A DNA stretch of 64,000 bases from Prosthecobacter debontii. Lineage in GTDB: Bacteria > Verrucomicrobiota > Verrucomicrobiia > Chthoniobacterales > Chthoniobacteraceae. A model generated the notes under the pieces. The model made no database searches. It was not told the DNA's origin and saw only the letters and a list, made by a program, of their open reading frames with translations. Position numbers and translations under genes: made by a program. The DNA lies in the NCBI GenBank assembly GCA_945905735.1, contig CAMDQC010000002.1:1-64000 (forward strand). Reading direction: 5' to 3'. Shown in pieces: positions 3,352 through 22,358 of the stretch; within the stretch, counting starts at the first letter, position 1, and each line of letters begins with the position of its first letter.

Positions 3352-4245
3352 ATGCCCAATACACTCACGAACGTCCAGGACATCAAGGTCGCGCAGAATG
3401 CGCTGCTGCCTTTCCGCGGGGCGCTGCTGCCGATCCGCGCCTTCTCCAGCAATTTCTCGCCCGACCCGGCCGAGAAGCTCGACACCGTGCGCGTGCCGGT
3501 GGTCGGCGCACCCACGCAATCGAGCGACTTCGCGGGCAGCTACACGGCGAACCCGGATTCCACGGTCACGGTGATTCCGGTGTCGCTCAATCGGCACAAG
3601 TTCAAGACCGTCCACGTCACCGCGCGTGAAGCCGCCGAGACGGCGTTCAACGTGCTCGACACGCTCGTCTCCGCCGCGGTGAAGCAGCTCGCGCAGGACG
3701 TGCTCCAGGACATTTTCTCCGCGATCACGGCGGCAAACTACGGCGCGCCGGTGATCCCCGCGCTGGCGGCCAGTGCGTTCGATTACAAAAAGCTCCTGGC
3801 GATCCGGGAGGCGTGCAGCGACGTGAAGATGCCCGTGACGGATCGCTCGCTCGTGCTCGATGGCGCCTACTACACGAACCTGCTCGGCGATGATGTGGTC
3901 GCGAAAGGCTTCGTCCCGCAGGTCGTGCAGCCTGGCATCATGGACGCGATGATTCGCCGTCTCGCCGGTTTCGATCTGCACGAGACAGTGATCCTGCCGG
4001 AGAACGGCGAGAAACTCATCGGCTTCGCGGCGCACCCGAGCGGCATGGCCGTGGCGATGCGCTACTTGGTGCCCGCCGCCGAATACGACGAAGCAGGTGC
4101 CATCACCGATCCCGAGACCGGCCTCACGTTCGGCTACCTGCGCTACAGCGAGACGAGCAGCAACCGAGTCTTCGTCACCGTCGAGTGCCTCTACGGGTTC
4201 AAGACGGCGCTGGCGGATGGCATCAAGCGGATCGTGAAGCCGTAG
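3352..4245 (+). CDS. Phage major capsid protein, P22 coat-like (HK97 fold)
   Basis: This 297-residue protein resembles phage coat proteins of the P22 group. It has an N-terminal segment with LPFRGALLPIRAFSSNF and DTVRVPVVGAPTQ, a central pattern of beta strands around SLNRHKFKTVHVTAREA, a helix-rich part (AVKQLAQDVLQDIFSAIT), and a C-terminal domain with YLVPAAEYDEAG and GLTFGYLRYSET. It would assemble into an icosahedral shell. No portal, terminase, protease or tail gene is present nearby, so it belongs to a stripped-down or domesticated element. An encapsulin-type compartment is an alternative for a lone HK97-fold protein, but no cargo enzyme is adjacent. A terminator follows at 4281. Confidence 0.75.
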   Translation: MPNTLTNVQDIKVAQNALLPFRGALLPIRAFSSNFSPDPAEKLDTVRVPVVGAPTQSSDFAGSYTANPDSTVTVIPVSLNRHKFKTVHVTAREAAETAFNVLDTLVSAAVKQLAQDVLQDIFSAITAANYGAPVIPALAASAFDYKKLLAIREACSDVKMPVTDRSLVLDGAYYTNLLGDDVVAKGFVPQVVQPGIMDAMIRRLAGFDLHETVILPENGEKLIGFAAHPSGMAVAMRYLVPAAEYDEAGAITDPETGLTFGYLRYSETSSNRVFVTVECLYGFKTALADGIKRIVKP

Positions 4246-9259: not shown

Positions 9260-11302
9260 TTAAGCCGCGTAGTATTTTGGATACCGGTAATAGTAGTAAT
9301 CCGGCAACTCCGTATCAACACAGTTCATAATGAGCCCCAGGACATTCACTTGCCGTTGGTAGAGCGCATTTAGAGCGTTGCGGGTCAACCGCGCAGACGT
9401 AAATGACGCGCGGATTACCATTAAAGTTCCGTCGAAATTCGGCGCGAGTGTAGGCGTATCATCCGTCGCAAGGATCGGTGCCGTATTGAAGACCACCAAG
9501 TCATAGCGCGCCTTCCATTCATCGAGCAATTTCTGCACGATAGGAAGCAAGAGCAACTCGCCCGACTGGTTCGTAACCGGTCCGCGCGGAATGATATGCA
9601 GCTTACCGCCTCGCACTTCTTGGACGGAATTCTGCCAAGTCACCTCCCCACGCAGAATGTTCGAGAGCCCCTGACGCCCATCAATATCAAAAAGCGCCGC
9701 AATATCCCCTCGACGCAAGTCCGCATCCACAAGGAGAACTCTCGCGCCCGCCGCAGACATCGTGACGGCGAGGTTACTCGCGACCGTAGATTTGCCTTCG
9801 TTCGGAATCGCGCTCGTCACAATCAGAGTCTTTAGCTCCGTCTGATTTGGCATAAAAATCAGCGAAGACCGCAAGCTGCGAAACGCCTCTGCAAACATGT
9901 AGCGGTCATCGTCCTCCTGCAAAAGCGGCAAACCAGCCTCAGTGCGCGTATCCGCCACATCGGGAATCTGCCCCAAAATCGGCTCGGCAAACTGCTCAAT
10001 CATCTCACTAGAGGAAGCCAATCGGTCATCCGCACGGTCGAGCAAAAACAGAATCCCAAGCCCCAACAAGAAACCGCCAATCAATCCAGTCAACAGATGC
10101 CGAACCACTCCGCGAGGTTCCTCCGTCGGAGTCTGCGCTGCGTAATGGATTCCGATGATCTCACCGCTATTTCCCTGCTCATTCTTCATCTTGGCGATTC
10201 GATCATCCGTGGTCTTCACTTTCTCCAAAGCCGAATCCACATTCATCTTCAGTTGGCGGTAGCGGAGCATGACAGAGCTCCATTTCACAGATTCCTCTGT
10301 AACTTCTTTAAGTTTTATCCGCGCCTGGTCGAGTTCGGTCTCAATCCGCTTAATCTGAGCTTCACGCCCAAGTTTTGCGAATTCAGACAACGTCTTGATC
10401 TCAGCATCTAGGGATTCGATCTCGTCAACAGCGGCGATATACCTTGGGTTTTTAGGGAGCCAAATCTCTTTCTTTTTCGCGAAGTCAGAGTCTTTTTTCG
10501 CCCGCAACTGTTTCAATGTCACCAGATTGTTGGCTGCGGGCGACGCTGATTCCTCTCCTTTGGTCGAGCCGGTTCCGCGCAAAACCTCACCGTCCGACAT
10601 CGATTTATACAGGTTCAAATGACTTTCGAGCCCACTAATCGTATCCTGAACCTTGTTCGTCTGGAGTGTGAGGTCTTTTTCCCGCTCTTCGGGAAGTGGC
10701 ACTTTGATGTCTTCTTTAAGCTTAAAGAGGGTATCTTTCGCTTCTTCCGCCAGTCGATTCTCGTCTGCGAGACGTTTATTGAGGTCGGCGATGACTTTTC
10801 CGTTGATCACAGCAGTCTCGTCCTCGCGAATCGCCAAGAACTCCTTCATCACGGTATCGACGTAAAACTGCGTAAAATCAGGGTTCTGCCCCGTCCCTGT
10901 CACAATGAAAAAGAACGTGTTTATTTCGTTCTCCGCGTTGATTTCAATCCGATCGACTTCCCCAATCCACTCGGGCTTCAAAACGGCTACCTGAGCCCGA
11001 GCACGCTCTCTCACTTGGATTCCCTTGAGCTGGGAAATCACATGTCCATAAAAACTGGGCAAATTGACCATCCCATTCATCCTTTCGTCAGACCCAGTGA
11101 GGCGCACGCTGAGTTTGCCAAAAGATACGAAACGAGTGGGCTTTGAAACTACGACGTAGGTTTCATAAAGAAGACCGATACCGATGGTGAGTGCTAAAAT
11201 CCACCAATAACGCCTGAGAACGGCGCGGTAGCGGTAAAAGCGAACTCCGAGTTTTGATCCAAGTTCCGCACCTGCGGCGGATGGGTAGGCTGGCGATTCC
11301 AT
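9260..11302 (-). CDS. Wzc-like polysaccharide co-polymerase / tyrosine autokinase with altered Walker B
   Basis: This 680-residue inner-membrane protein has a Wzz-type chain-length domain between two membrane segments (about 33-52 and 402-420). A long coiled coil links them. A cytoplasmic BY-kinase domain follows, with Walker A SAIPNEGKST (about 497-505) and Walker A' VLLVDADLRRG (about 520-530). Walker B reads DLVVFNTAPIL near residue 604, with Asn where the family has Asp. The protein ends in a Tyr-rich tail, ELPDYYYYRYPKYYAA, the usual autophosphorylation cluster. Proteins of this family control length and export of exopolysaccharide with an SLBB outer-membrane partner, which is encoded 13 bases upstream. 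The loss of the Walker B Asp may weaken or abolish kinase activity. Confidence 0.93.
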   Translation of the reverse strand: MESPAYPSAAGAELGSKLGVRFYRYRAVLRRYWWILALTIGIGLLYETYVVVSKPTRFVSFGKLSVRLTGSDERMNGMVNLPSFYGHVISQLKGIQVRERARAQVAVLKPEWIGEVDRIEINAENEINTFFFIVTGTGQNPDFTQFYVDTVMKEFLAIREDETAVINGKVIADLNKRLADENRLAEEAKDTLFKLKEDIKVPLPEEREKDLTLQTNKVQDTISGLESHLNLYKSMSDGEVLRGTGSTKGEESASPAANNLVTLKQLRAKKDSDFAKKKEIWLPKNPRYIAAVDEIESLDAEIKTLSEFAKLGREAQIKRIETELDQARIKLKEVTEESVKWSSVMLRYRQLKMNVDSALEKVKTTDDRIAKMKNEQGNSGEIIGIHYAAQTPTEEPRGVVRHLLTGLIGGFLLGLGILFLLDRADDRLASSSEMIEQFAEPILGQIPDVADTRTEAGLPLLQEDDDRYMFAEAFRSLRSSLIFMPNQTELKTLIVTSAIPNEGKSTVASNLAVTMSAAGARVLLVDADLRRGDIAALFDIDGRQGLSNILRGEVTWQNSVQEVRGGKLHIIPRGPVTNQSGELLLLPIVQKLLDEWKARYDLVVFNTAPILATDDTPTLAPNFDGTLMVIRASFTSARLTRNALNALYQRQVNVLGLIMNCVDTELPDYYYYRYPKYYAA

Positions 11303-11315
11303 ATCAGATAGTGCC

Positions 11316-12026
11316 TTAAAAGTTCCACTTTAGCGCCGGAACGAATATCCGGTCGCCATCTCTTAACGGAAAATCGTTCTTCGTATTTCCCTTCTCCAAG
11401 ATGTCCTTCACATTGTATTCGCGTGTCTCACTCCCCCGTGTTACCCGTACCTTCTCCAAATCAGACCAGGAAGTAGAGCCCGCCTCGTTGACTGCTTCTG
11501 ATAATGTCTTCGGAGCATTCGAGTAGAACTCCACCGCTCCGGCGCGCGCTACTTTTCCAGACATGATGACTTTCGATTTCGTCTGTCCACTCATTGGAAG
11601 GACATTGAGACCGATCACCACGGTAGCCTTCCCGTGCTTGTAGTAGCGACCTTCAAGATAGGATTTTACGGCCGATGCTGCCTGTGAGGAAGTCATCCCG
11701 TTCACATCGACGCGCCCCATTCCACCGGGAATCTCTAATTCACCGGTGTCCGCAATAATTGCACGAACTGGCGCTTCGTTCTCCTCGACAATCTTAAACG
11801 AAACCTCCGCCCCAGGAGCCAAAGGCGTGTTTGGAGAAACTGCCACTGAGCGCCCTGTATCCGCCGAGCGAATCTCGGCTACTGGCTCGGTTGGCGACAC
11901 CGCAGGCGCGCCCGCTCCAGGGCGACCTGTCGGCTTGAAAAAACTATTGGACTGCGCACTCACCGAACTGGTCGCCGATATGATGAGGGCGACCGCCCCG
12001 AGGAATCGAATTGGAAAGTTACGCAT
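11316..12026 (-). CDS. Polysaccharide export protein with Poly_export and SLBB domains
   Basis: This is 236 residues beginning with a signal peptide (MRNFPIRFLGAVALIISATS ... VSAQ). It has no lipobox Cys, unlike classical Wza. Residues about 70-145 look like the Poly_export domain (PGAEVSFKIVEENEAPVRAI, VDVNGMTSSQAASAVKSYLE). Residues about 155-225 look like an SLBB domain (VIMSGKVARAGAVEFYSNAP, KTLSEAVNEAGSTSWSDL), ending in FPLRDGDRIFVPALKWNF. It should act in the periplasm or outer membrane as the export partner of the Wzc-like protein encoded directly downstream. The outer-membrane barrel gene 14 bases upstream may supply the missing pore function. Confidence 0.88.
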   Translation of the reverse strand: MRNFPIRFLGAVALIISATSSVSAQSNSFFKPTGRPGAGAPAVSPTEPVAEIRSADTGRSVAVSPNTPLAPGAEVSFKIVEENEAPVRAIIADTGELEIPGGMGRVDVNGMTSSQAASAVKSYLEGRYYKHGKATVVIGLNVLPMSGQTKSKVIMSGKVARAGAVEFYSNAPKTLSEAVNEAGSTSWSDLEKVRVTRGSETREYNVKDILEKGNTKNDFPLRDGDRIFVPALKWNF

Positions 12027-12040
12027 AGGCCATAGTGATT

Positions 12041-13411
12041 TTAAAATTTATAGTAGAGACTAAACATCCCTAGATTCTGTTTGTAATCAGAGTCAGGTCT
12101 GTTCGAGTCTTTCATAAGAAAGCGATAATCGAGCCCAAGTGTCAGAGAATTTGATAGGATGTGGTGAATTCCCAATGCAAGCCCCAGTCGACGAGCCTCT
12201 TCCGGAACGGCCCCCGATGTCTCATAAGATTCGTAAAACGCTGTCGGAGTGATAGATGTGCTTTCGCGCAAGAGCCAGTCGGCAGAGTATTCAAAATGGT
12301 AGAGGTCGTAAAAATTCGACCCTAATCCGCTCTCAGTTGTGCGAGAAGCAGTGAGGGAATGGCGGAAGTTTTCACTCGGACGGTTCGTGATCTGGACCTT
12401 AAAATATATTTCCTCACTGTCCTGGGTATCTTGGATGAAAAATGGCGCTCCGGCGACTCCATTGGCGACAGGAACGATGAGTTGGAGGGTCCCACCGTCA
12501 TAGTCCGATTTTTGCCATCCGACTTCGCCATAGAAATCCGTATTGTCAGAAACTTTGACCTGGATGTACGGACCGACCAGCGTGGTTTTTCCGTCCGCTT
12601 GGATATTCTGTTTATAGTCCGCCCAACTCACGGAACCATTCAGTCCAACCGTCAGTCGTGGGTTGATGTCAACGCTTGGCCGAATGAAAACAGTATTGAT
12701 GGTACGATCTTGCGGGGCAAACGTTTCGTCTTTGGCCCAAAGGTCGAAACGGTCGAATCCCACAGAAACGCGGGCGTATTCTGTCGCCTCCCAGTCAACT
12801 TCAATGCCAGATTGGTTCTCCCAGCGTTTATAGTTGGCGACGTTGCTGAGAACGGGAAGATCAAACGGATCCTCCTGGTACGAAATGCGTTCCCTTAAGG
12901 TAAAAGTAAGACTCCCAGTTTTTACCGTCCACACGATCGCGGAGGTGGGCGATAGGATCACAGATTCCGAATCGAATTCGCTATGACTGAGGTATTTTGC
13001 GTATCCCAAGCCGATTCCGAATCGAAGGGTGTTTAATTCAGACACCCTCAAAATCCCCTCGATATTTATCTCGGGACGAAGCACGATGTCGCTTAATTGA
13101 TTGGAGTGCGAAAGGGTAATGTTATCGTTAAATTCGACCCCGATACCCGCAGCGATTACAAAATCAACCAGACCCAAGCGGAAATTGTATTTTTCTTCCA
13201 CAGCCTGTTGATCTACCGCATCGACAGGAGATAGCCCATCTGGTGAATTGCCGGCGAAGACGCCCGCAGAAGGGGTTAAACGACCGATACCGCTGGAACT
13301 GCGCGAAGTACCAAATTCGCGAAAAAACTCCTGCGAATAAGCAGGCGCAGCCAAGCAGAGCAAAGCTCCAGCAGTGAGAACCGGATAAACCCGACCAGCA
13401 AGAATCTTCAT
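12041..13411 (-). CDS. Outer-membrane beta-barrel protein of the exopolysaccharide block
   Basis: This is 456 residues with a clear signal peptide (MKILAGRVYPVLTAGALLCL ... PAYSQ). The mature part is made of alternating amphipathic strands with aromatic girdles (TLRFGIGLGYAKYL, SLTFTLRERISYQ, TLGLDYRFLM) and ends in the terminal Phe motif FSLYYKF that is typical of BamA-inserted barrels. No Pfam-level family is certain by eye, but similar barrels accompany exopolysaccharide export genes in other bacteria. It sits between the kinase-like gene and the SLBB gene on the same strand with short gaps (79 and 14 bases). A role as the exit pore is inferred. Confidence 0.8.
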   Translation of the reverse strand: MKILAGRVYPVLTAGALLCLAAPAYSQEFFREFGTSRSSSGIGRLTPSAGVFAGNSPDGLSPVDAVDQQAVEEKYNFRLGLVDFVIAAGIGVEFNDNITLSHSNQLSDIVLRPEINIEGILRVSELNTLRFGIGLGYAKYLSHSEFDSESVILSPTSAIVWTVKTGSLTFTLRERISYQEDPFDLPVLSNVANYKRWENQSGIEVDWEATEYARVSVGFDRFDLWAKDETFAPQDRTINTVFIRPSVDINPRLTVGLNGSVSWADYKQNIQADGKTTLVGPYIQVKVSDNTDFYGEVGWQKSDYDGGTLQLIVPVANGVAGAPFFIQDTQDSEEIYFKVQITNRPSENFRHSLTASRTTESGLGSNFYDLYHFEYSADWLLRESTSITPTAFYESYETSGAVPEEARRLGLALGIHHILSNSLTLGLDYRFLMKDSNRPDSDYKQNLGMFSLYYKF

Positions 13412-13490: not shown

Positions 13491-16400
13491 CTACTTCGGC
13501 TTTACCGCCGGTTTACCACCCTCTGAGGCCCTGACGACTCGGAACCCGTAAGTGTCATTAGATGCATCAGGTTTCGCGTTATAGCGGCACGACGCAAGCA
13601 GTGACGGCTTGATTCCGCCATTATACCACGAACCTCCCCGCAACACCTTACTCTCTTTTGCTTCATTAAAATAATCATTCGTCCATTGCCAGACATTACC
13701 CCCCATATCATTGAGTCCAAACGCGTTGGGCTTAAATTTCCCGACCGGCGAAGTCCACTGAAAGTCATCGCGGTATCCTTGGAGTTTCACTTCGGAATTG
13801 GTTTCCTCTCCCGCATAATTTCCCGCACCCGCTGGCGGTGGCCAGTCTATGCCCCATGGAAATATCCCATCCACTCCTAGGTCACGATCTTCCGGCGTGG
13901 CTCCGCTCTCTGGGGGCAGTCCAACAGCACGGCTCCACTCAAAATCAGACGGAAGTCGGTAGAATTCGGTAGGTTTGATGGCTCCTGCCTTCCGATCTTT
14001 CTCAGTGAGCCACTTACAAAAGGCGTCCGCCTCTTTCCATGTGACGTTCACCACGGGATGATCCTCCTCTTGAGTAAATCCCGGAGTGCGCCAACTGCCA
14101 CCTTTCAGCTTCTTTTCATTCGCAAATGCCTCATAATCCTTTCGAGTCACTAGATTCACGGCGAAATCAACATCGTCGATCTTCACAAAGCGCATCCCAA
14201 TGGAATTTACTCCATTTGTCGTAGCGGCAGACTTCGGGGGAAGCGGTTGAGGTGTCGGCACCGGAGGAGGCTGCAGGGTCGGCTGAACTGGCTGGGCTGC
14301 ATTGACCGGCGAACTCGCACCGCCAAGTTGCGCTATTTCATCGCGCAACGCTTTGAGTTGAGCATTGGTAGCGGCGATTCGTTCGGAGATAGGCTTAGCG
14401 GCGGGGATTCCGGCTTCGCCGATGTCCTTCAGTCGAACAAGGACATCTTCACAGCGCTTAATATCGGACTCAAGCGGTGCGATTTTTTTCTGCAAGTCTG
14501 CGATCTTTGCTTGGTTTTGCACGCGCATCGCCTCAAGCGCGCCCGCTTTCGCTTTTTCGACCGCGGCGATCAATAGCGCCCTTTCTCGTTCGATTTGCTG
14601 AAGTCCCAGAGCCGCTTGTTGACGCAGCGCGAGGACTTGCGTTTGATTTTTCCCAAACTCTTCAGATTGCTTTGCTTGCTCTACGATTTTCTGGCCAAGC
14701 TCCCTCAGTTCTTCATCGGCTTTTTTTGCGGCTTCCAGCTTTACTGCGGCTTGCTGGACGAGCGTCTCGTAGGCCGTCTTCGCAGCATCCGCAACCTTGC
14801 GCGCCTCAAGCGCCAGCGCCTCGGACCGACTCGCCTCTTCTTCGCGTTTCTTCCGTTCTACGACCAATGCATCATTTTCTTTCAGCATGGGGGTGAGCAC
14901 CTTTTTACGCTCGTCGAGAGTCTTGCGCAGGTCTTCCTGCGCTTTTTTGGCGCGGTCCGAAAGATGCAGTATCTCCTGTTGCGCCTGCTCGGCCTCCCCA
15001 GCAGTTTGTTTTAATAACACTTCCACATTGCTACGCTCCGCGATTAGCTTTTCTAGCGTTGCAGTGTCGGCTCCCGGCGGAATCGTCAATTTTGCAGGCA
15101 TCTGGGGCAGCGGCGGAAGCTTCACAGCCACGCCAACCACCAGTTGCGCTGGGACTTTCACGTCAGGCGGGCTCGTGGGCACTTGAGGCGGTATTTCAGG
15201 TTCCACTTTCGGTGGAATTTTCGCCCCTATGATTTCCCGCTTCGAGGGCTTCGGAACCATCACCGCCGACTTGTTTGGGTCATCACTAGGCGGGCTCGGA
15301 GGCGGGGTTATTGGTGAGATATCAGCGGGATTTGAAGGCAGCGTGGAGACAGGAATCGGAAGAGCTGCGACATTTTCCACCGGGAGGGGCAGATTCCGAT
15401 TGACGACATCCTCGGGAACTGGCGGGGGCAGACTTCCATCAAGCGGCGGTAATTGCGAATCTCCTTTTGGCAGTGGAAGTGACTCAACAGCACCACTCAC
15501 ATCCGGCGACACGACCGCCACGTTACCAGCACCATCATTTGTATCCCCTGAGTTGATTTTTTTAACGCGAACTGCGGAACTTGGGTTAATCACCGCAAAC
15601 GCGGCCAAGCCGACGGCAAGTCCTGCCATTACGACAGGCCATTTTGACTTAGGCCGAGACAGTTCCGGAAAATTCGAGGAAAGATTGGCTTTCGGTCCGG
15701 ATTGACGATTGGCAGGTGCAACAGGCGGCGCAGGAGGTGCCTGTTGTGCCTTTGTTGTCGCATTGCTATCGGGGACGACTGGTTCAGGTGGAAGGGTCGT
15801 GTCTTTAATCGCCGCAAACTCTGGCGCCTCAGTTACAGGGGCTGGATTAAAGTGCGCCGCCGTATTTCCACCAAACGAAACCCGACGCTCCGCGCCGCCG
15901 CTCTTAACGGGTGCCCCAGGCGCAGAAATCGCCGCCGGACGGGGAGGTGCCGGGGAGTGCACCGGTTCCGCTTCCGCTTTAGTAACAGGCGGCGCTTCCG
16001 GCATCGGGGTAGAGGGACCAACTCCCGCAGTACCCGCAGACGAATGAATCAAGGCAACCGCAGCACCACACGTTGCCGGGCGTTGCTCCGGCGCTTTTGA
16101 CATGCACGCCGCCACAAAACTCTCCCACTCAGAAGCAACTGGAGCTCCAAGCAAATCCGCAACGCGCGGTGCCGGCGTGGTGCGAATCGCAGGCACCACA
16201 TCATGCCCGGAAAACGGCAATTTCCCCGAAATCAACTCGCATACGAGTACTCCAAGCCCGTAAACATCATCGCTCTTCGTCGGCTTTTCGCCATCAACCT
16301 GCTGTGGGCTCATATAGGCCATGTGGAGTGAATCAGATGACAATGAACGAGTCCGCTCCATTGCATCACGAATACACCGTGCAACTCCAAAATTTGTCAC

Positions 16401-16892
16401 AAAGAGCCCCCCGCTCGGCCGCACGTAAATGTTCGACGGCGCAATATCTCGATGAAGCAACTGCACACGATGCGCGTCATCCAAGGTTCCTGCAAGCTGT
16501 TGAATCCACGCTTTGATCTCGCTCGGTTCGAACCGGCCTTTCCGCTTTAACAAAGACTCCAAAGACTCGCCGTCAAAACGATCCATCGACACTGCGGCAA
16601 AACCACTGCCCTCAACAAAATCATACACACGAAGAATGTGGGGATGAATTAATTGGCGATTTCGCTTCACCTCCTGGCGCAGTTCCGCCATCCCTCGCTG
16701 ATCGTCCAAAATCGCCAGCGGAACAAAGTGAAGCGATACCTCTTTCCCCAAAACCTCGTCGTTGGCAAGCCATACGGCGAGACCCGACTCACCCGGAATT
16801 TCTCGGTTGAGGACGTAGCATCCCGCTAGTTTCTGACCTGCCACAAAGGCGTTTTGGCTTGTATTGGATGATGAGTTCGCTTCGTTTTGCAC
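13491..16892 (-). CDS. Pseudokinase-like membrane protein fused to a formylglycine-generating-enzyme-type domain
   Basis: This is 1133 residues starting with GTG at 16892. Residues about 20-285 are a Ser/Thr protein-kinase fold with an intact catalytic loop (LLHRDIAPSNIYVR). The loop that is normally DFG is NFG (TNFGVA, about 167-169). The beta-3 Lys position reads VSLHFVP with His, and the Gly loop is degenerate, so catalysis is doubtful. A Pro/Ala-rich linker follows, then one membrane segment near 416-434, a further Pro-rich region, and a long coiled coil at about 627-830. The C-terminal domain (about 890-1125) is SUMF1/EgtB-like (SIGMRFVKI, GGNVWQWTNDYF, VLRGGSWYNGG, YGFRVVRASEG). Kinase outside or inside and FGE-like domain in the periplasm would link sensing to the export genes downstream; that is inference. 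Confidence 0.85.
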   Translation of the reverse strand: MQNEANSSSNTSQNAFVAGQKLAGCYVLNREIPGESGLAVWLANDEVLGKEVSLHFVPLAILDDQRGMAELRQEVKRNRQLIHPHILRVYDFVEGSGFAAVSMDRFDGESLESLLKRKGRFEPSEIKAWIQQLAGTLDDAHRVQLLHRDIAPSNIYVRPSGGLFVTNFGVARCIRDAMERTRSLSSDSLHMAYMSPQQVDGEKPTKSDDVYGLGVLVCELISGKLPFSGHDVVPAIRTTPAPRVADLLGAPVASEWESFVAACMSKAPEQRPATCGAAVALIHSSAGTAGVGPSTPMPEAPPVTKAEAEPVHSPAPPRPAAISAPGAPVKSGGAERRVSFGGNTAAHFNPAPVTEAPEFAAIKDTTLPPEPVVPDSNATTKAQQAPPAPPVAPANRQSGPKANLSSNFPELSRPKSKWPVVMAGLAVGLAAFAVINPSSAVRVKKINSGDTNDGAGNVAVVSPDVSGAVESLPLPKGDSQLPPLDGSLPPPVPEDVVNRNLPLPVENVAALPIPVSTLPSNPADISPITPPPSPPSDDPNKSAVMVPKPSKREIIGAKIPPKVEPEIPPQVPTSPPDVKVPAQLVVGVAVKLPPLPQMPAKLTIPPGADTATLEKLIAERSNVEVLLKQTAGEAEQAQQEILHLSDRAKKAQEDLRKTLDERKKVLTPMLKENDALVVERKKREEEASRSEALALEARKVADAAKTAYETLVQQAAVKLEAAKKADEELRELGQKIVEQAKQSEEFGKNQTQVLALRQQAALGLQQIERERALLIAAVEKAKAGALEAMRVQNQAKIADLQKKIAPLESDIKRCEDVLVRLKDIGEAGIPAAKPISERIAATNAQLKALRDEIAQLGGASSPVNAAQPVQPTLQPPPVPTPQPLPPKSAATTNGVNSIGMRFVKIDDVDFAVNLVTRKDYEAFANEKKLKGGSWRTPGFTQEEDHPVVNVTWKEADAFCKWLTEKDRKAGAIKPTEFYRLPSDFEWSRAVGLPPESGATPEDRDLGVDGIFPWGIDWPPPAGAGNYAGEETNSEVKLQGYRDDFQWTSPVGKFKPNAFGLNDMGGNVWQWTNDYFNEAKESKVLRGGSWYNGGIKPSLLASCRYNAKPDASNDTYGFRVVRASEGGKPAVKPK

Positions 16893-17364: not shown

Positions 17365-18723
17365 ATGAAACACACCATAACAACATTGCTCACACTGGCA
17401 TGCGCTGCATGTCTGACTTCCGTAGCCGCAGAAACTACGCCGAGCGCCAAGCAGTTACAGTCTTTTCAAAAGAACCTTGCGCGGCAGCACCTCGGATCAA
17501 ACCTGTTCCTTTTCGACAGCTCGAAACAGACCTACGTACATACCGAAGCCGCTGCTGCTTGGCTTGATGACGATATCTCCACCGGTTGGCCAGCGCTGGC
17601 TGGAAAGCAACACTACGTGCTGCAATTCAGCGAACCACAGGTCCTCACGAACTTCAGCCTCTCGACAGCACCCGTCGAAGGAACAATCACAATCTACTCC
17701 GGCGACGAAGTAAAAAATCCCGGTGATGTTTCATGGCAAATCGTGGCCAAAGACGTTCCTGTCTCTGCCATCAACCAAAAGAAGCTCGCGAAGAGCTTCA
17801 ATCGGCAAGCGAAGTGCATCTTGATCGAAACGAACATCCCGAATCCGGGCCCTATTTTCAGCCTTTACGCTTACGGGGAGCGGGTTGCCGTGAACGACGC
17901 CATCGTCAAGCGCAGCAATCAAGTCGAAGTTTCGGCACTTGGCGAGTTCGTCAATAACCAAACCAGCTTCAACGTCTCCAGCATTTACAGCCAAGGGCTC
18001 GTGACCTACCTCAATGGAGGCACATCCTCGGTCGCATGGCAAAAAGCCATCGACGATAATCCGGAGACTTCGTCCGTGCTTAAAGCAAGCACGGACTCGG
18101 GAATGGTCATTACATTCGGCTCAAGCCGGACTGTTTCGCGCCTCGCATTGTTGACCGATGTGGCCACCAAAGGTAAGGCAGATGTTTATCTACTCGCCGA
18201 AGCTCCAGCAGTCGGGCAGCCAGTCTCGCTTGATGGCGTGCAGCCATCTGTAACCATCAGCTTCGACGGCTCTAACGCTCGCGCCAGCGTGGACTTCGAT
18301 GACACGACATCTGTCGCGATGGCTATCCGCTGGACACCGGAAACGGCTGGGCAAAGCCTGAACGTTCGCGAGTTAAACACCTTCGCCAACCTCTCACTCG
18401 CTGATTACGAAGTGGCCGGAGCGCTCGTCGCAATCGCTGAGGCTCCATCAGACGTGGCAAGCGAGCAAAAAACCGCCACCGCCAAGGATGGTAAGGAAAT
18501 CACGCCAATCGGTGAAGGCCGAGACACCGCTGACTACAAAGGCGGCGATGGCAAGGGGTCCAAGGAAATCATCGGCGAGGCACCTCCCGAAGCACAAGCG
18601 AGCTACTTCCCTGGTGGGCTCGGATTCCAGCCGAATCTCTCTTCATTCCGCGGACGTAGTCCAGTAATTCTAGTTCCGCCGGGTAGAGTGTTGCCTCCGG
18701 ATAAAAAGTTCCCAAGCCCTTAG
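17365..18723 (+). CDS. Secreted protein with F5/8 type C (discoidin)-like domains
   Basis: The start is set at ATG 17365 because MKHTITTLLTLACAACLTSV ... AAE is a good signal peptide; the 15 preceding codons are not. The 452-residue product has two regions that resemble discoidin-like sugar-binding beta sandwiches. The first has AAAAWLDDDISTGWPALAGK and HYVLQFSEPQVLTNFSLST, and the second has AWQKAIDDNPETSSVLKA with SGMVITFGSSRTVSRLALLT. The C-terminal 100 residues are low-complexity, Lys/Asp/Gly then Pro-rich, and may be an anchoring or linking region. It is extracellular or surface-associated. Position opposite the exopolysaccharide block suggests matrix binding, but this is inferred. Confidence 0.65.
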   Translation: MKHTITTLLTLACAACLTSVAAETTPSAKQLQSFQKNLARQHLGSNLFLFDSSKQTYVHTEAAAAWLDDDISTGWPALAGKQHYVLQFSEPQVLTNFSLSTAPVEGTITIYSGDEVKNPGDVSWQIVAKDVPVSAINQKKLAKSFNRQAKCILIETNIPNPGPIFSLYAYGERVAVNDAIVKRSNQVEVSALGEFVNNQTSFNVSSIYSQGLVTYLNGGTSSVAWQKAIDDNPETSSVLKASTDSGMVITFGSSRTVSRLALLTDVATKGKADVYLLAEAPAVGQPVSLDGVQPSVTISFDGSNARASVDFDDTTSVAMAIRWTPETAGQSLNVRELNTFANLSLADYEVAGALVAIAEAPSDVASEQKTATAKDGKEITPIGEGRDTADYKGGDGKGSKEIIGEAPPEAQASYFPGGLGFQPNLSSFRGRSPVILVPPGRVLPPDKKFPSP

Positions 18724-18833: not shown

Positions 18834-21800
18834 TCACCTCACCCGCCGACGGGAGAACCAAGCAGTCAACCCCAAAAAAAGCAACCCAGTGGAACCCGGT
18901 TCCGGAATGCTGCTGCTTCGAAGCACGACGTCATTGCCTACGCCTTCAAATCCCACCCCAGACTCTCCGGTGTAGCTGATTTGGAAAAACTGCCCACTGA
19001 TGGGGAAAACCGCGCCTTGATTCAGGTTTGCAACGACTCCATTCAACGTTCCAAACACGCCCGTGATGGCATCGCTTCCGTCATTCAGGATCAAATAAAA
19101 CAGATCGATTCCGGGAACCGGAACGAATCCCAAATCAAGAGACAAACCTCCGTCTGCGAGCGACACAGAACCAACTACAGACACTTGATCGTAGCCTGCC
19201 ACCGCCAAGGTGCTGTCGATATCGAAACGCGCGCTTCCTCCGAGGGCCAATGACACCGTTCCGGTCCTGATCTGCCCTTTCGCATCGCCAGCGGGAGACA
19301 GCGTCCCACCGCTACCAACGTTGACCGGCCCTACGATTCCCGTCCCTGCTAATGTCGCGGAAGAGTTGACCACGACGCTCCCTGAAACGCGTCCCGAAAC
19401 TTGCAGCGTCCCTTCCTGAATCATCACGTCGGCAAGAAAATCACCTTGTTCGTCACCGATTTCCAGCGTTCCTGCTCCGGAGGTGACCATCAAGCCATCC
19501 CCGATCAGTTGATTCGGATCATTTAAGCGAAATACGCCGCTCTCCACATGAATCTCCCCCACCGTGTCGATGACCCACCGTTTCGTATCTGGAAGCGGAT
19601 CCAAATCGCCGGAATCCACCGAAAATATCGCTCCATTGGTAAGGCGGATATCTTTTTGCCCCGAACCCAGCACCGTCGGATCCGCCGCGCCCGGCCCGGC
19701 GATGAGCAACTCCGTTCCATCCACCAAAATATCCCCAGCAAACGTATTCGCAGTGTTCCCCAACCGGACCGCGCCACCGCCGGAAAAGGTCACACCGAAA
19801 GTGCTGACACCCGCCACGCCGCCGGAGATCACCCGATCCAGCGTCAACGTGGAAGCGGTCACATTCACGGTCGCCCCACCAGAAACGCCGACGATGAGCG
19901 GTCGTCCGAGCGCGACGCTATTCGCACCTCGGTAGGTGAACGCAGCGACTCCCACGCGTAGCGCGTCGATGCCCGTTCCCAAGGCCGCTATATCATCGAC
20001 GATCAACTCACCATCTTGGACAGAAATCTCGCCGAGATTCCCATTCGCATTGTCAAGCAACAGCTCCAGACCGCCGGGGCCGAACTTCGTAAAGCCACCG
20101 GCAGTGCCCGTATTCACGATGTCGGATGCGATGATCGAAGTAGTATTCGACGCGACATACACAAGCGCCTCCCTCGTTCCGAAAGACAGTCTCCCGCCAC
20201 GAATCTCAGCGCTGCTACGGAGGATGATCCCCGCCGTGGTACTCGATCCGCCGAGCGTGAGTGTGATGCCCGGATCAATGTTTAAATTACTGCCGACCCG
20301 CACGGCGAGGGCGGACTCGTTGGCGGATACCGGCGACTCCAAGGTGATGTCTGCGATCTCGGCGGTTACTGCGGGATTTGGATCAAATCCATCGGAATAG
20401 GAGGACTGTTTACTGTTAAAACCGGTCGAAGCTGAGTAGCTCAGAAAGTGAGGAGACTCATCCACATCCGAATCAAGTCCCAGCACATACGGTGGGAAAA
20501 ACGGGATGGTCGTCGTTATCGATGGGATGCGCCACCGCTCGCCATCGCTCAACGGCGCACCGAGCAACCCGATCCCAGCCATCCCGGTCACCACAGCCGT
20601 GCCGTGGTCCACACGCGCTAATGCACCAGTGCTGAGGGTCGCGAGCAGATTGCCGGAGTTCCCGAGCGTCAGGCCGGTATTATCGAGCACCACCTTCACC
20701 GCCCCGCCGAGCGTGATCGCACCAGTCGTCAGCGTCACCGTGTCCAAGTCGGAGACGGGGGCCAGCGTCAACAGCCCATAGTTTAATCGCACAGCCCCGG
20801 TCCCCACGACATTCCCGCTCGGAGCCAACGAGTGCAGTTCCCCTCGACCGAGCGTGAAGCCACCCGTCGCCGACGCCGCAACGTCCAGCCTCAGAGCGCC
20901 TCTGCCCCATTTGGTAAAAGCACCCGTCCCCGATACAGCCGTGGTCAACAGCCCGAACACCATATCGGCATCCACTTCGATCCCGTTCGTCGCTCCGATC
21001 AAATTGATCCCACGGTCCGAGTCGAAGCCCTGCGTCACCAATAGTCCTCCTCCACTCAGTCGCACCCCGTTGCCCGACTTCACGAGTTCGGAATCCGAGT
21101 CCACGCTTACGAGTCCGCCCGTCACCACGATAGAACTCGCAGCATTAGTCCCGAATTGGTTGTTCCCATTCCCAAGCAGCAACGTGCCTGCGCCGGATTT
21201 CGTCAGCACCGTGGATCCGCTCAGCGCGCCGGAAAGCGTCGCGAGACTCCCGCCGGCCACGTCCACGGTCGTCGTACGGTTCAGCGCGATATCACCGGTG
21301 AAAGTTGCATGTCCTCCGCGGATCGACACCGTCCTCGTGCCTCCTGTACCGCCGGACGTAATCGCATTCGCAATCGTCGCCGTGCGGCTCACCGTCAGCG
21401 CCGTATTTGATGCAGCAGTGCCCAATTGCACCGATCCCGCGCCCAATGCACCCGATATCCGTGCCTCCACTTCCCCGGCAGAAATCAGCAGTCCTCCCGT
21501 CCACGTCGAAGTCTCGCGAAACACCAGCGCCGCAGAGCCCAGCTTCGTCAGCGTCCGCGCTCCACCCGACTCCGTAACCGCGCCAAGCAGCGTCTCCGCA
21601 TTCGTCGTCAGCGTCGCATTTCCATCCAGCGTCACCACGTCGAACCCCAGCTTAAAGGCATTCCCCGCCGCCGTCGTCAGCTTCTGCGCTCCGATTTGTA
21701 AACCGGCCAGCTCCAGCAGTTTTCCCGTCCCTCCTGTCGTAGTCAGCCGGTCCACATTGATCGTCACATTACTCGTAACGCGGACGCGATTGAGCAGCGC

Positions 21801-22358
21801 AAACTCCTCAAGCACCGAAGAATTGGCACCATCCCGACGAAGATTCAGCGTCCCTCCGCCGAGTAGCAATTGCGCCGAGCCCAGCGGACTGCCAGTGCCT
21901 GCATATTGCAGTTGGAGGATGCCAGAAGTCAGCGTCACCGACTGCGCGGAAGTAAGATTCCCATTCCCACTCAACACCGCGCTGCCGCTCGAACCGGTGA
22001 TAGAAAACACATTGCCCGCCACCGTAGAAAAAACACCACCACTCACCGTCAACACCCGCGTCCCGAGAGCCATGGTATAAGCGCCTGTCGTGAAGTTCAG
22101 CGAAGTCGCCGAGAGCGTCGCGCCCAACGTCACCACGCCCGCTGTGCCGCCGAATACCGCATCATTCGTCGTCCACCTTACCCCCGTCCCTCCCGTCAGC
22201 GCTGTATCCCAATTTAGCGTCGCCCCCGTACTCCACGTCCCAGCCCCCCCGCCCGGATCGCCAGCGATCGTCGCGCCATCCCAGTAAAGCTGAGCAGCAT
22301 CGCTTGCCGCGGTGGACGAAAGCAGTGCGAGAATCAAGTAAGAGCGTGGACGAAGCAT
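18834..22358 (-). CDS. PEP-CTERM protein with autotransporter-associated beta-strand repeats
   Basis: This is 1174 residues. A signal peptide (MLRPRSYLILALLSSTAASD) is followed by AAQLYWDGATIAGDPGGG and many imperfect repeats of the type L-x-K-x-G-x-G-x-L-x-L-x-[GN]-x-N. Examples are LTKSGAGTLLLGNGNNQFG and FTKFGPGGLELLLDNANGNL. These form a right-handed parallel beta helix of the autotransporter-associated repeat class. The C-terminus carries a PEP-CTERM sorting signal: IPEPGSTGLLFLGLTAWF followed by SRRRVR. Such proteins are processed by an exosortase and displayed on or released from the cell surface, often with exopolysaccharide. No exosortase gene lies in the window. Confidence 0.93.
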   Translation of the reverse strand: MLRPRSYLILALLSSTAASDAAQLYWDGATIAGDPGGGAGTWSTGATLNWDTALTGGTGVRWTTNDAVFGGTAGVVTLGATLSATSLNFTTGAYTMALGTRVLTVSGGVFSTVAGNVFSITGSSGSAVLSGNGNLTSAQSVTLTSGILQLQYAGTGSPLGSAQLLLGGGTLNLRRDGANSSVLEEFALLNRVRVTSNVTINVDRLTTTGGTGKLLELAGLQIGAQKLTTAAGNAFKLGFDVVTLDGNATLTTNAETLLGAVTESGGARTLTKLGSAALVFRETSTWTGGLLISAGEVEARISGALGAGSVQLGTAASNTALTVSRTATIANAITSGGTGGTRTVSIRGGHATFTGDIALNRTTTVDVAGGSLATLSGALSGSTVLTKSGAGTLLLGNGNNQFGTNAASSIVVTGGLVSVDSDSELVKSGNGVRLSGGGLLVTQGFDSDRGINLIGATNGIEVDADMVFGLLTTAVSGTGAFTKWGRGALRLDVAASATGGFTLGRGELHSLAPSGNVVGTGAVRLNYGLLTLAPVSDLDTVTLTTGAITLGGAVKVVLDNTGLTLGNSGNLLATLSTGALARVDHGTAVVTGMAGIGLLGAPLSDGERWRIPSITTTIPFFPPYVLGLDSDVDESPHFLSYSASTGFNSKQSSYSDGFDPNPAVTAEIADITLESPVSANESALAVRVGSNLNIDPGITLTLGGSSTTAGIILRSSAEIRGGRLSFGTREALVYVASNTTSIIASDIVNTGTAGGFTKFGPGGLELLLDNANGNLGEISVQDGELIVDDIAALGTGIDALRVGVAAFTYRGANSVALGRPLIVGVSGGATVNVTASTLTLDRVISGGVAGVSTFGVTFSGGGAVRLGNTANTFAGDILVDGTELLIAGPGAADPTVLGSGQKDIRLTNGAIFSVDSGDLDPLPDTKRWVIDTVGEIHVESGVFRLNDPNQLIGDGLMVTSGAGTLEIGDEQGDFLADVMIQEGTLQVSGRVSGSVVVNSSATLAGTGIVGPVNVGSGGTLSPAGDAKGQIRTGTVSLALGGSARFDIDSTLAVAGYDQVSVVGSVSLADGGLSLDLGFVPVPGIDLFYLILNDGSDAITGVFGTLNGVVANLNQGAVFPISGQFFQISYTGESGVGFEGVGNDVVLRSSSIPEPGSTGLLFLGLTAWFSRRRVR

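Follow-up and report, generated by a model that had tools for sequence, protein, structure and literature searches.

A transmembrane pseudokinase with a catalytically dead FGE-like end, a candidate envelope adaptor in freshwater Verrucomicrobia

The stretch analysed here (the window) comprises 64,000 nucleotides, positions 1 to 64,000 of contig CAMDQC010000002.1 in an assembly from freshwater Verrucomicrobia (Prosthecobacter debontii, GCA_945905735.1; 258 contigs, 93.5% complete). On its minus strand lies an open reading frame (ORF) of 1133 residues with a GTG start, whose product joins a kinase-like domain, through a membrane segment and a long stalk, to an FGE-like domain (Table 1). A preliminary description of this gene, made from its letters, had proposed that the kinase is a pseudokinase. 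The comparisons below confirm that claim and widen it to a whole clade of proteins in which, to judge from their sequences, both ends are dead.

Both ends of the protein are recognized by Pfam above cut-off, Pkinase at aa 67-274 (102 bits, E 4.6e-29) and FGE-sulfatase at aa 915-1121 (117 bits, E 1.4e-33). Between them, hydropathy analysis (Kyte-Doolittle, 19-residue windows) finds a single hydrophobic segment preceded by a basic KSK, which is followed by a Pro-rich part (aa 442-600), a Pro-poor part (aa 601-870) and a second Pro-rich linker. The Pro-poor part is charged and rich in Ala and Leu, with only 3-5% Pro, and shows a weak SMC match over aa 611-857; it is a probable coiled coil, as judged from composition and this match rather than by a dedicated predictor. 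The ORF, both domains and the hydrophobic segment that had been described at the outset were thus all found. The same check was applied to 16 proteins, i.e. 14 pseudokinase proteins (the present one and its homologues, 13 of them with His at the β3 position discussed below, plus G044) and two motif-intact relatives, and a hydrophobic helix C-terminal of the kinase domain was present in 14/14 of the former, G044 carrying a second, weaker segment. No signal of RNA structure was found 5' of the gene (z -0.02).

The kinase domain has lost residues that serve to anchor ATP, bind Mg and handle phosphate. The Gly loop is gone (GESGLAVW), the β3 Lys is replaced by His (VSLHF) and the DFG Asp by Asn (TNFG), while the αC Glu is retained (RQEVK), as is HRD, in which the Lys of HRDxK has become Ala (HRDIAPSN). 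The preliminary description, which had listed HRD, NFG, His for Lys and a degenerate Gly loop, was therefore correct as far as it went, all four being seen in the sequence, although it had overlooked the loss of the HRDxK Lys. Structure prediction with AlphaFold2 on 23 homologous kinase domains gave a complete two-lobed kinase with a mean predicted local distance difference test score (pLDDT) of 92. The best Foldseek match of the modelled domain is PknA (4x3f, E 3.3e-21), the VIA match to Stk1 has a Z of 30.0 and a root-mean-square deviation of 2.8 over 256 residues, and the best solved matches as a whole are PknA, PknB and Stk1. A retained kinase fold such as this predicted one carries no information on activity. 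With H, D and N at β3, HRD and DFG, the domain departs from the residue set of active Hanks-type Ser/Thr kinases and, by its sequence, is a bacterial Ser/Thr pseudokinase in the sense of a kinase fold lacking at least one of the three canonical residues. The PADLOC matches to a defence kinase (PD-T4-6; 159 bits) cover the kinase domain and are expected for any Hanks kinase, and this reading was set aside.

How general these losses are was assessed with a kinase-domain profile searched in the bacterial family (40 genomes), in the order (213 genomes; best 11 candidates per genome scored) and in an even sample of the phylum (387 genomes, drawn from a larger group; best 6 per genome scored). Thirty genes with His or Tyr at β3 (H/Y type) were found, one per genome and all within this bacterial family, most members of which have one strong match per genome. 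Among them β3 is His in 28 and Tyr in two, never Lys. The DFG Asp is likewise always replaced (N in 23, G in three, H in two, S and A in one each), the xFG motif as such being present in 29/30, and so is the HRDxK Lys (S in 15, A in 12, C in two, D in one). The HRD Asp is retained in 17 of the 30, the remainder having N (nine) or Y, S, G and E (one each); the close relative G002, for instance, reads HRY. Homologues with an intact β3 Lys and DFG, which the preliminary description had named as the finding that would speak against it, were thus sought across the set, and their absence (0/30) strongly supports the pseudokinase claim. A hidden substitute for the lost Lys, of the kind represented by the β2 Lys of WNK or the Arg of DLHK, was also sought in the 30 homologues and rejected: Lys or Arg occurs in the Gly-loop/β2 columns 17-25 in 0/30, and the HRD Arg, present in 23/30, is the sole basic residue of the catalytic loop proper. 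The G015 homologue, whose kinase domain aligns in fewer than 180 columns, is included in these counts and was left out of the tree described below. Two H-type genes have no FGE-like domain in their ORF, one at a contig end (G016) and one (G024) in which a separate frame, overlapping the first, encodes the FGE part. For this last arrangement (L073 5100-6467 and 5822-8296) a split gene, a frameshift or a faulty assembly could be responsible.

Active relatives look quite different. The closest active set was chosen by its Lys, the Asp of HRD and of DFG, and SPQQ, and all 37 of its genes have the HRDxK Lys too; intact PknB-like kinase genes belonging to it stand in a row within a 19.5-kb stretch of one genome (L164, G132:C1:96500-116000). 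The two matches of the phylum sample from outside the order, both in G424, read VALKF, HRDLKP and DFG. The genome of the window itself has 17 kinase matches, namely this gene, 11 others that were inspected and five without a locus that were not; the β3 Lys is kept in 10/10 of the others with an aligned N-lobe, and the HRD and DFG/DWG Asp in all 11. A search of genome contigs for related loci returned four distant kinases and one true relative, in a metagenome-assembled genome of Chthoniobacteraceae (L051), which is 89% identical over the gene and has the whole block in the same order.

In a FastTree phylogeny of 97 kinase domains, all 29 H/Y sequences that were long enough form one clade (support 0.987), which contains no Lys-bearing member and was recovered in 77/80 bootstraps. 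Near it, without firm support, fall three degenerate kinases, L074 (K-K-D, with an FGE-like domain), L166 (K-E-E) and L167 (K-G-D). The ratio of non-synonymous to synonymous substitution rates (dN/dS, NG86) in 10 pairs is 0.04-0.22 for the kinase domain and 0.10-0.30 for the linker plus helix, and in nine of these pairs it is 0.04-0.11 for the FGE-like domain, the remaining one giving no dS. By this measure the kinase domain is under purifying selection, and the loss of kinase residues is clade-wide and selectively maintained. A sequencing error, or decay in one genome, is contradicted by the 30 homologues and by dN/dS. Within the domain, the β3 position comes 28th in conservation among 274 columns (23 rows, near-identical sequences removed), whereas HRDxK, the DFG Asp and the HRD Asp rank 110, 116 and 118. 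With a conserved β3 column and drift at the other lost positions, the His looks selected rather than left over. The αC Glu being kept in 19 of the 23 rows, one may guess that a His-Glu pair stands in for the usual Lys-Glu.

The other end of the protein tells a similar story. In a good alignment of the FGE-like domains from 28 homologues, none of the 28 has Cys at either of the two catalytic positions (GGSxxC and five residues on). The genome also encodes a true FGE (L001 1501-2382) with an intact catalytic Cys pair, RGGSWMCADSYC, which aligns with human SUMF1 and bacterial FGE; the pair is visible in the SUMF1 and 6muj sequences as well. An active FGE is thus ruled out by the absent Cys pair, and by its sequence the FGE-like end is catalytically dead as well. 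The earlier call of an FGE-like domain therefore stands, confirmed by Pfam and profile, though it had missed the loss of the catalytic cysteines. Other cysteines are kept, in FCKW (28/28) and SSCR (26/28), and look equivalent in the alignment to those of AYCTW and RYRCAAR in SUMF1, which we take to form a structural disulfide. If the kept cysteines form such a disulfide, they would fit with an oxidising periplasm, and this conserved pair, together with the helix found after the kinase domain, supports the membrane layout first proposed, in which the two ends lie on opposite sides. Profile matches of the FGE-like domain are to SUMF2, SUMF1 and bacterial FGE, and the nearest solved sequences are SUMF2 (pFGE), PorK and PvdO. 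pFGE is termed a non-functional counterpart of FGE (PMC1262709).

The gene heads a minus-strand block: 79 bases separate it from the gene of a β-barrel outer-membrane protein (OMP), 14 bases then lie before an SLBB gene and 13 before a Wzc-like one, and an S41 peptidase gene comes next. This order and close spacing bear out its description as the first gene of an exopolysaccharide-export block. Against the XrtA/PEP-CTERM models TIGR03016, TIGR03027 and TIGR03018, the OMP, SLBB and Wzc proteins score 41, 39 and 115 bits, all below cut-off, and the one exosortase of the genome is on another contig. The Walker A motif and Tyr-rich tail of Wzc are kept here and in 6/6 other syntenic copies inspected. 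The gene is flanked on its other side by a divergently transcribed conserved neighbour, which has no Pfam, NCBIfam or PHROG match. Its AlphaFold model (14 sequences) has a mean pLDDT of 60 with two better β-sandwich regions, and nearly all of the 50 PDB matches listed have F5/8-type discoidin or CBM32-like domains (CBM32, fucolectin, neuropilin and coagulation factors among them); the whole-chain TM-score is low, and a single domain reaches 0.67 against the AlyQ CBM32. The discoidin/CBM32-like assignment is a lead only, and a secreted carbohydrate-binding protein, apt for a role at a surface polymer, is a fair guess from this model. Beyond this neighbour, a minus-strand gene (18834-22358) encodes a protein of 1174 aa that weakly matches PATR autotransporter repeats and PEP-CTERM and is also found in G002 and, as far as the sequence reaches, in G009. 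Elsewhere in the window, a 297-aa protein (3352-4245, plus strand) matches PHROG major head proteins (E 7.9e-27) and might be a prophage remnant.

Table 1. Coordinates of the pseudokinase gene, its parts and the genes discussed with it (positions in the window unless a locus is named)
Feature	Position	Strand	Remarks
Whole gene: pseudokinase, transmembrane helix, helical/putative coiled-coil stretch, FGE-like domain	13491..16892	-	1133 aa
Pseudokinase domain, aa 18-285	16038..16841	-	predicted bilobal kinase fold, pLDDT 92
β3 His, aa 55, replacing the ATP-anchoring Lys	16728..16730	-	homologue alignment
Asn, aa 167, replacing the DFG Asp	16392..16394	-	homologue alignment
Transmembrane segment, aa 417-441	15570..15644	-	Kyte-Doolittle
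Charged stretch rich in Ala and Leu and poor in Pro (probable coiled coil), aa 601-870	14283..15092	-	composition, weak SMC match
FGE-like domain, aa 880-1133, without catalytic Cys pair	13494..14255	-	Pfam 915-1121, alignment
β-barrel OMP	12041..13411	-	weak match TIGR03016 (PEP-CTERM system OMP)
SLBB/Poly_export protein	11316..12026	-	weak match TIGR03027
Wzc-like chain-length/BY-kinase, Walker A (AIPNEGKS), Tyr-rich tail	9260..11302	-	NCBIfam match below cut-off, motif inspection
Divergent conserved neighbour, signal-peptide-like start	17365..18723	+	two predicted discoidin/CBM32-like domains, low-confidence model
Surroundings of the homologue in genus g5 (PilT-like and O-methyltransferase genes)	L082 3081-5275 and 8223-9311		likewise L075, L077, L078, L080, L081, L083, L143, L144

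The link to export is plausible at this locus and uneven beyond it. The gene lies directly before the OMP in 10 of the 30 genomes (the present one, G002, G003, G004, G012, G015, G024, G028, G031 and G033), and contig ends permit this adjacency in two more (G005 and G016), while the contig of G009 stops too soon; adjacency to OMP-SLBB-Wzc thus recurs in four genera, and in a fifth by contig ends. In four others (G001, G006, G007 and G020, where the contig ends 1.7 kb past the gene) the gene is not before the OMP, and OMP-SLBB-Wzc is on other contigs. The remaining 13 (G008, nine of genus g5, G014, G018 and G026) are unlinked to the exporter, G014 and G018 having a distant OMP-SLBB-Wzc trio elsewhere. 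Searches for the OMP and the divergent neighbour in 31 of the 40 family genomes found the neighbour in 17, of which 16 have a close OMP, and a close OMP in none of the 14 genomes without the neighbour (best score there 182 bits, 33% identity). Genus g5 stands apart: a divergent PilT-like gene flanks the homologue in 9/9 genomes, with a second PilT in eight and a contig end in the ninth, an O-methyltransferase gene is on its flank in 9/9, and a close OMP is absent in 7/7 genomes tested. Such genus-wide synteny comes from one lineage and is weak evidence by itself. The possibility that the exporter-linked homologues are one derived subclade was rejected, as they were monophyletic in 0/80 bootstraps; the linkage therefore either was present in the ancestor and later disappeared, or arose repeatedly. 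The 'signalling scaffold for export' of the preliminary description is accordingly supported in part: the adjacency recurs and the neighbour co-occurs with the OMP, but gene and trio are separated in some genomes and homologues persist without a close OMP. On these comparisons, an exopolysaccharide scaffold is plausible for the present locus and not in general.

Since both broken ends are kept across the bacterial family, the protein is probably an adaptor for surface machinery and not an enzyme, and on balance we lean towards a non-catalytic single-pass envelope adaptor or receptor with a dead enzyme at each end. The pseudokinase domain would offer a docking surface for proteins in the cytoplasm, with the Pro-rich and helical stretch extending into the periplasm. 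There the FGE-like head would bind a partner, for which the polymer, the secreted discoidin-like protein and a component of the outer membrane are candidates. Binding outside would be relayed, or the machinery on both sides tethered, by protein contacts without phosphorylation. The likeliest client, here and in several related genera, would be the downstream OMP-SLBB-Wzc exporter, while in genus g5 it may instead be the pilus-retraction ATPases. Published precedents for such roles are EssB/YukC, a transmembrane pseudokinase that acts as a scaffold (PMC12599244), and PorK, in which an FGE fold has become a docking hub (PMC12421860). Several points weigh against this adaptor. Direct adjacency to the exporter is limited to 10 of the 30 homologues (two more fitting by contig ends), G001, G006 and G007 keep the trio apart from the gene although they share the genus of the present genome, and the 11 searched genomes among the 13 unlinked ones have no close OMP. 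Topology, docking and client are, moreover, inferred and the partner is a candidate, and some unusual chemistry is possible because the HRD Asp is kept in 17/30.

A narrower version, which we regard as quite possible though short of an even chance, makes the protein a dedicated regulator that gates polymerisation and export, with its pseudokinase docked to the Wzc-like BY kinase and its FGE-like head to the OMP or SLBB protein of the exporter. The position of the gene at the head of a closely spaced block, the recurrence of this order between genera and the co-occurrence of the divergent neighbour with the OMP even where the order is broken all speak for it, and EcpK, a BY-type pseudokinase acting as a scaffold on a polysaccharide co-polymerase (PCP), provides a precedent (PMC12004946). 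However, the genus-g5 genomes tested carry the gene with no close OMP, G001, G006 and G007 have it away from the trio, and there is no missing kinase to replace because Wzc keeps its Walker A motif and Tyr tail. The protein might alternatively be a ligand sensor: with a sugar or peptide as the external ligand of its C-type-lectin-like FGE head, its pseudokinase would recruit an active kinase on the inner side or switch one allosterically. Motif-intact kinases are available in the genome, the clade arose beside active kinases of the same lineage and in PorK the FGE fold has taken on a binding role (PMC12421860), pFGE/SUMF2 being the nearest solved structure; nevertheless, both ligand and partner kinase are hypothetical, and the receptor layout is not common to the closest active set because only one of its 37 kinases carries an FGE-like domain, so that this sensor seems rather doubtful.

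Residual or novel catalysis is less probable still. An atypical enzyme that binds nucleotide, or performs another transfer via the conserved His, could be argued from the retention of the HRD Asp in 17/30 and of the β3 His in 28/30 homologues, and kinase-like folds with new chemistry do exist, as in SelO and SidJ (PMC12599244). It is nonetheless improbable, the Gly loop, DFG Asp and HRDxK Lys being gone with no basic substitute in β2 or the catalytic loop, and the HRD Asp being replaced in 13/30, including the close relative G002. That the protein is a decaying former kinase without function is hardly credible: the catalytic positions do drift, but this reading is already contradicted by selection on the domain, and the ORFs are long and intact, most genomes of the family having a single strong match. 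To return to the adaptor, its most far-reaching form would be an undescribed family of trans-envelope adaptors in which His (perhaps with the αC Glu) replaces the Lys-Glu bridge and fixes one docking state, with polymer or outer membrane sensed at the FGE-like head, gating of surface machines by the pseudokinase through contact only and the client swapped in evolution between exopolysaccharide export and pilus retraction; we consider this extension unlikely as a whole.

Whichever client is involved, these proteins constitute a compact and testable family in which both receptor-like ends have lost catalysis yet are under selection, with a specific His replacement and candidate clients. If the adaptor is real, a kinase fold can serve envelope machinery by contact alone. 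There is also a practical caution, namely that kinase-FGE proteins of the phylum should not be annotated as enzymes before their catalytic residues have been checked.

Kinases of the PknB type have one transmembrane helix after the kinase domain. The present protein resembles PknA, PknB and Stk1 in this respect and in fold and sequence; unlike them, it has lost the β3 Lys, DFG Asp, HRDxK Lys and Gly loop, and an FGE-like domain replaces the PASTA part outside. A likeness in domain content is found in Chlamydia, where kinase-DUF323/NirV (FGE-like) proteins combine both domains in one polypeptide (PMC1262709); however, the chlamydial Pkn1 and PknD, whichever of them bears the FGE-like domain, both autophosphorylate (PMC5177608). 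Little work has been done on bacterial Ser/Thr pseudokinases, and for most of them no function is known (PMC12599244). The text of this review makes no mention of FGE, sulfatase or Verrucomicrobia, and no publication on a pseudokinase with an FGE-like domain was found, by title and the start of the abstract, in the open-licence library that was searched. Two families that it describes share the divergent ATP and metal motifs, DYD pseudokinases with a β3 Arg and a DYD motif, and DLHK pseudokinases with no transmembrane segment and with basic residues in β2 and the catalytic loop (PMC12599244). The present clade differs from DYD by having His or Tyr at β3 in 30/30 and xFG in 29/30, and from DLHK by the helix found in all pseudokinase proteins tested and the absence of Lys and Arg from columns 17-25.

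As a membrane pseudokinase tied to a secretion system, the protein recalls, by description alone, EssB/YukC, the transmembrane pseudokinase scaffold of the type VIIb secretion system (PMC12599244), although system and phylum are others and no FGE-like head is described for it there. EcpK of Myxococcus xanthus, a pseudokinase required for exopolysaccharide that acts as a scaffold on a PCP (PMC12004946), is of the BY type, whereas the fold here is of the Hanks type and the locus keeps a Wzc with kinase motifs. For the other end, the best parallel is PorK/GldK of the type IX secretion system, PorK being a repurposed FGE fold without the two catalytic Cys that serves as a docking hub in the periplasm (PMC12421860). 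The likeness extends to sequence (E 3.7e-19 by profile), while against the NCBIfam GldK model the protein scores 65.3 bits, below the cut-off of 350; and whereas PorK/GldK is an outer-membrane-anchored ring protein, here the same fold ends a transmembrane pseudokinase.

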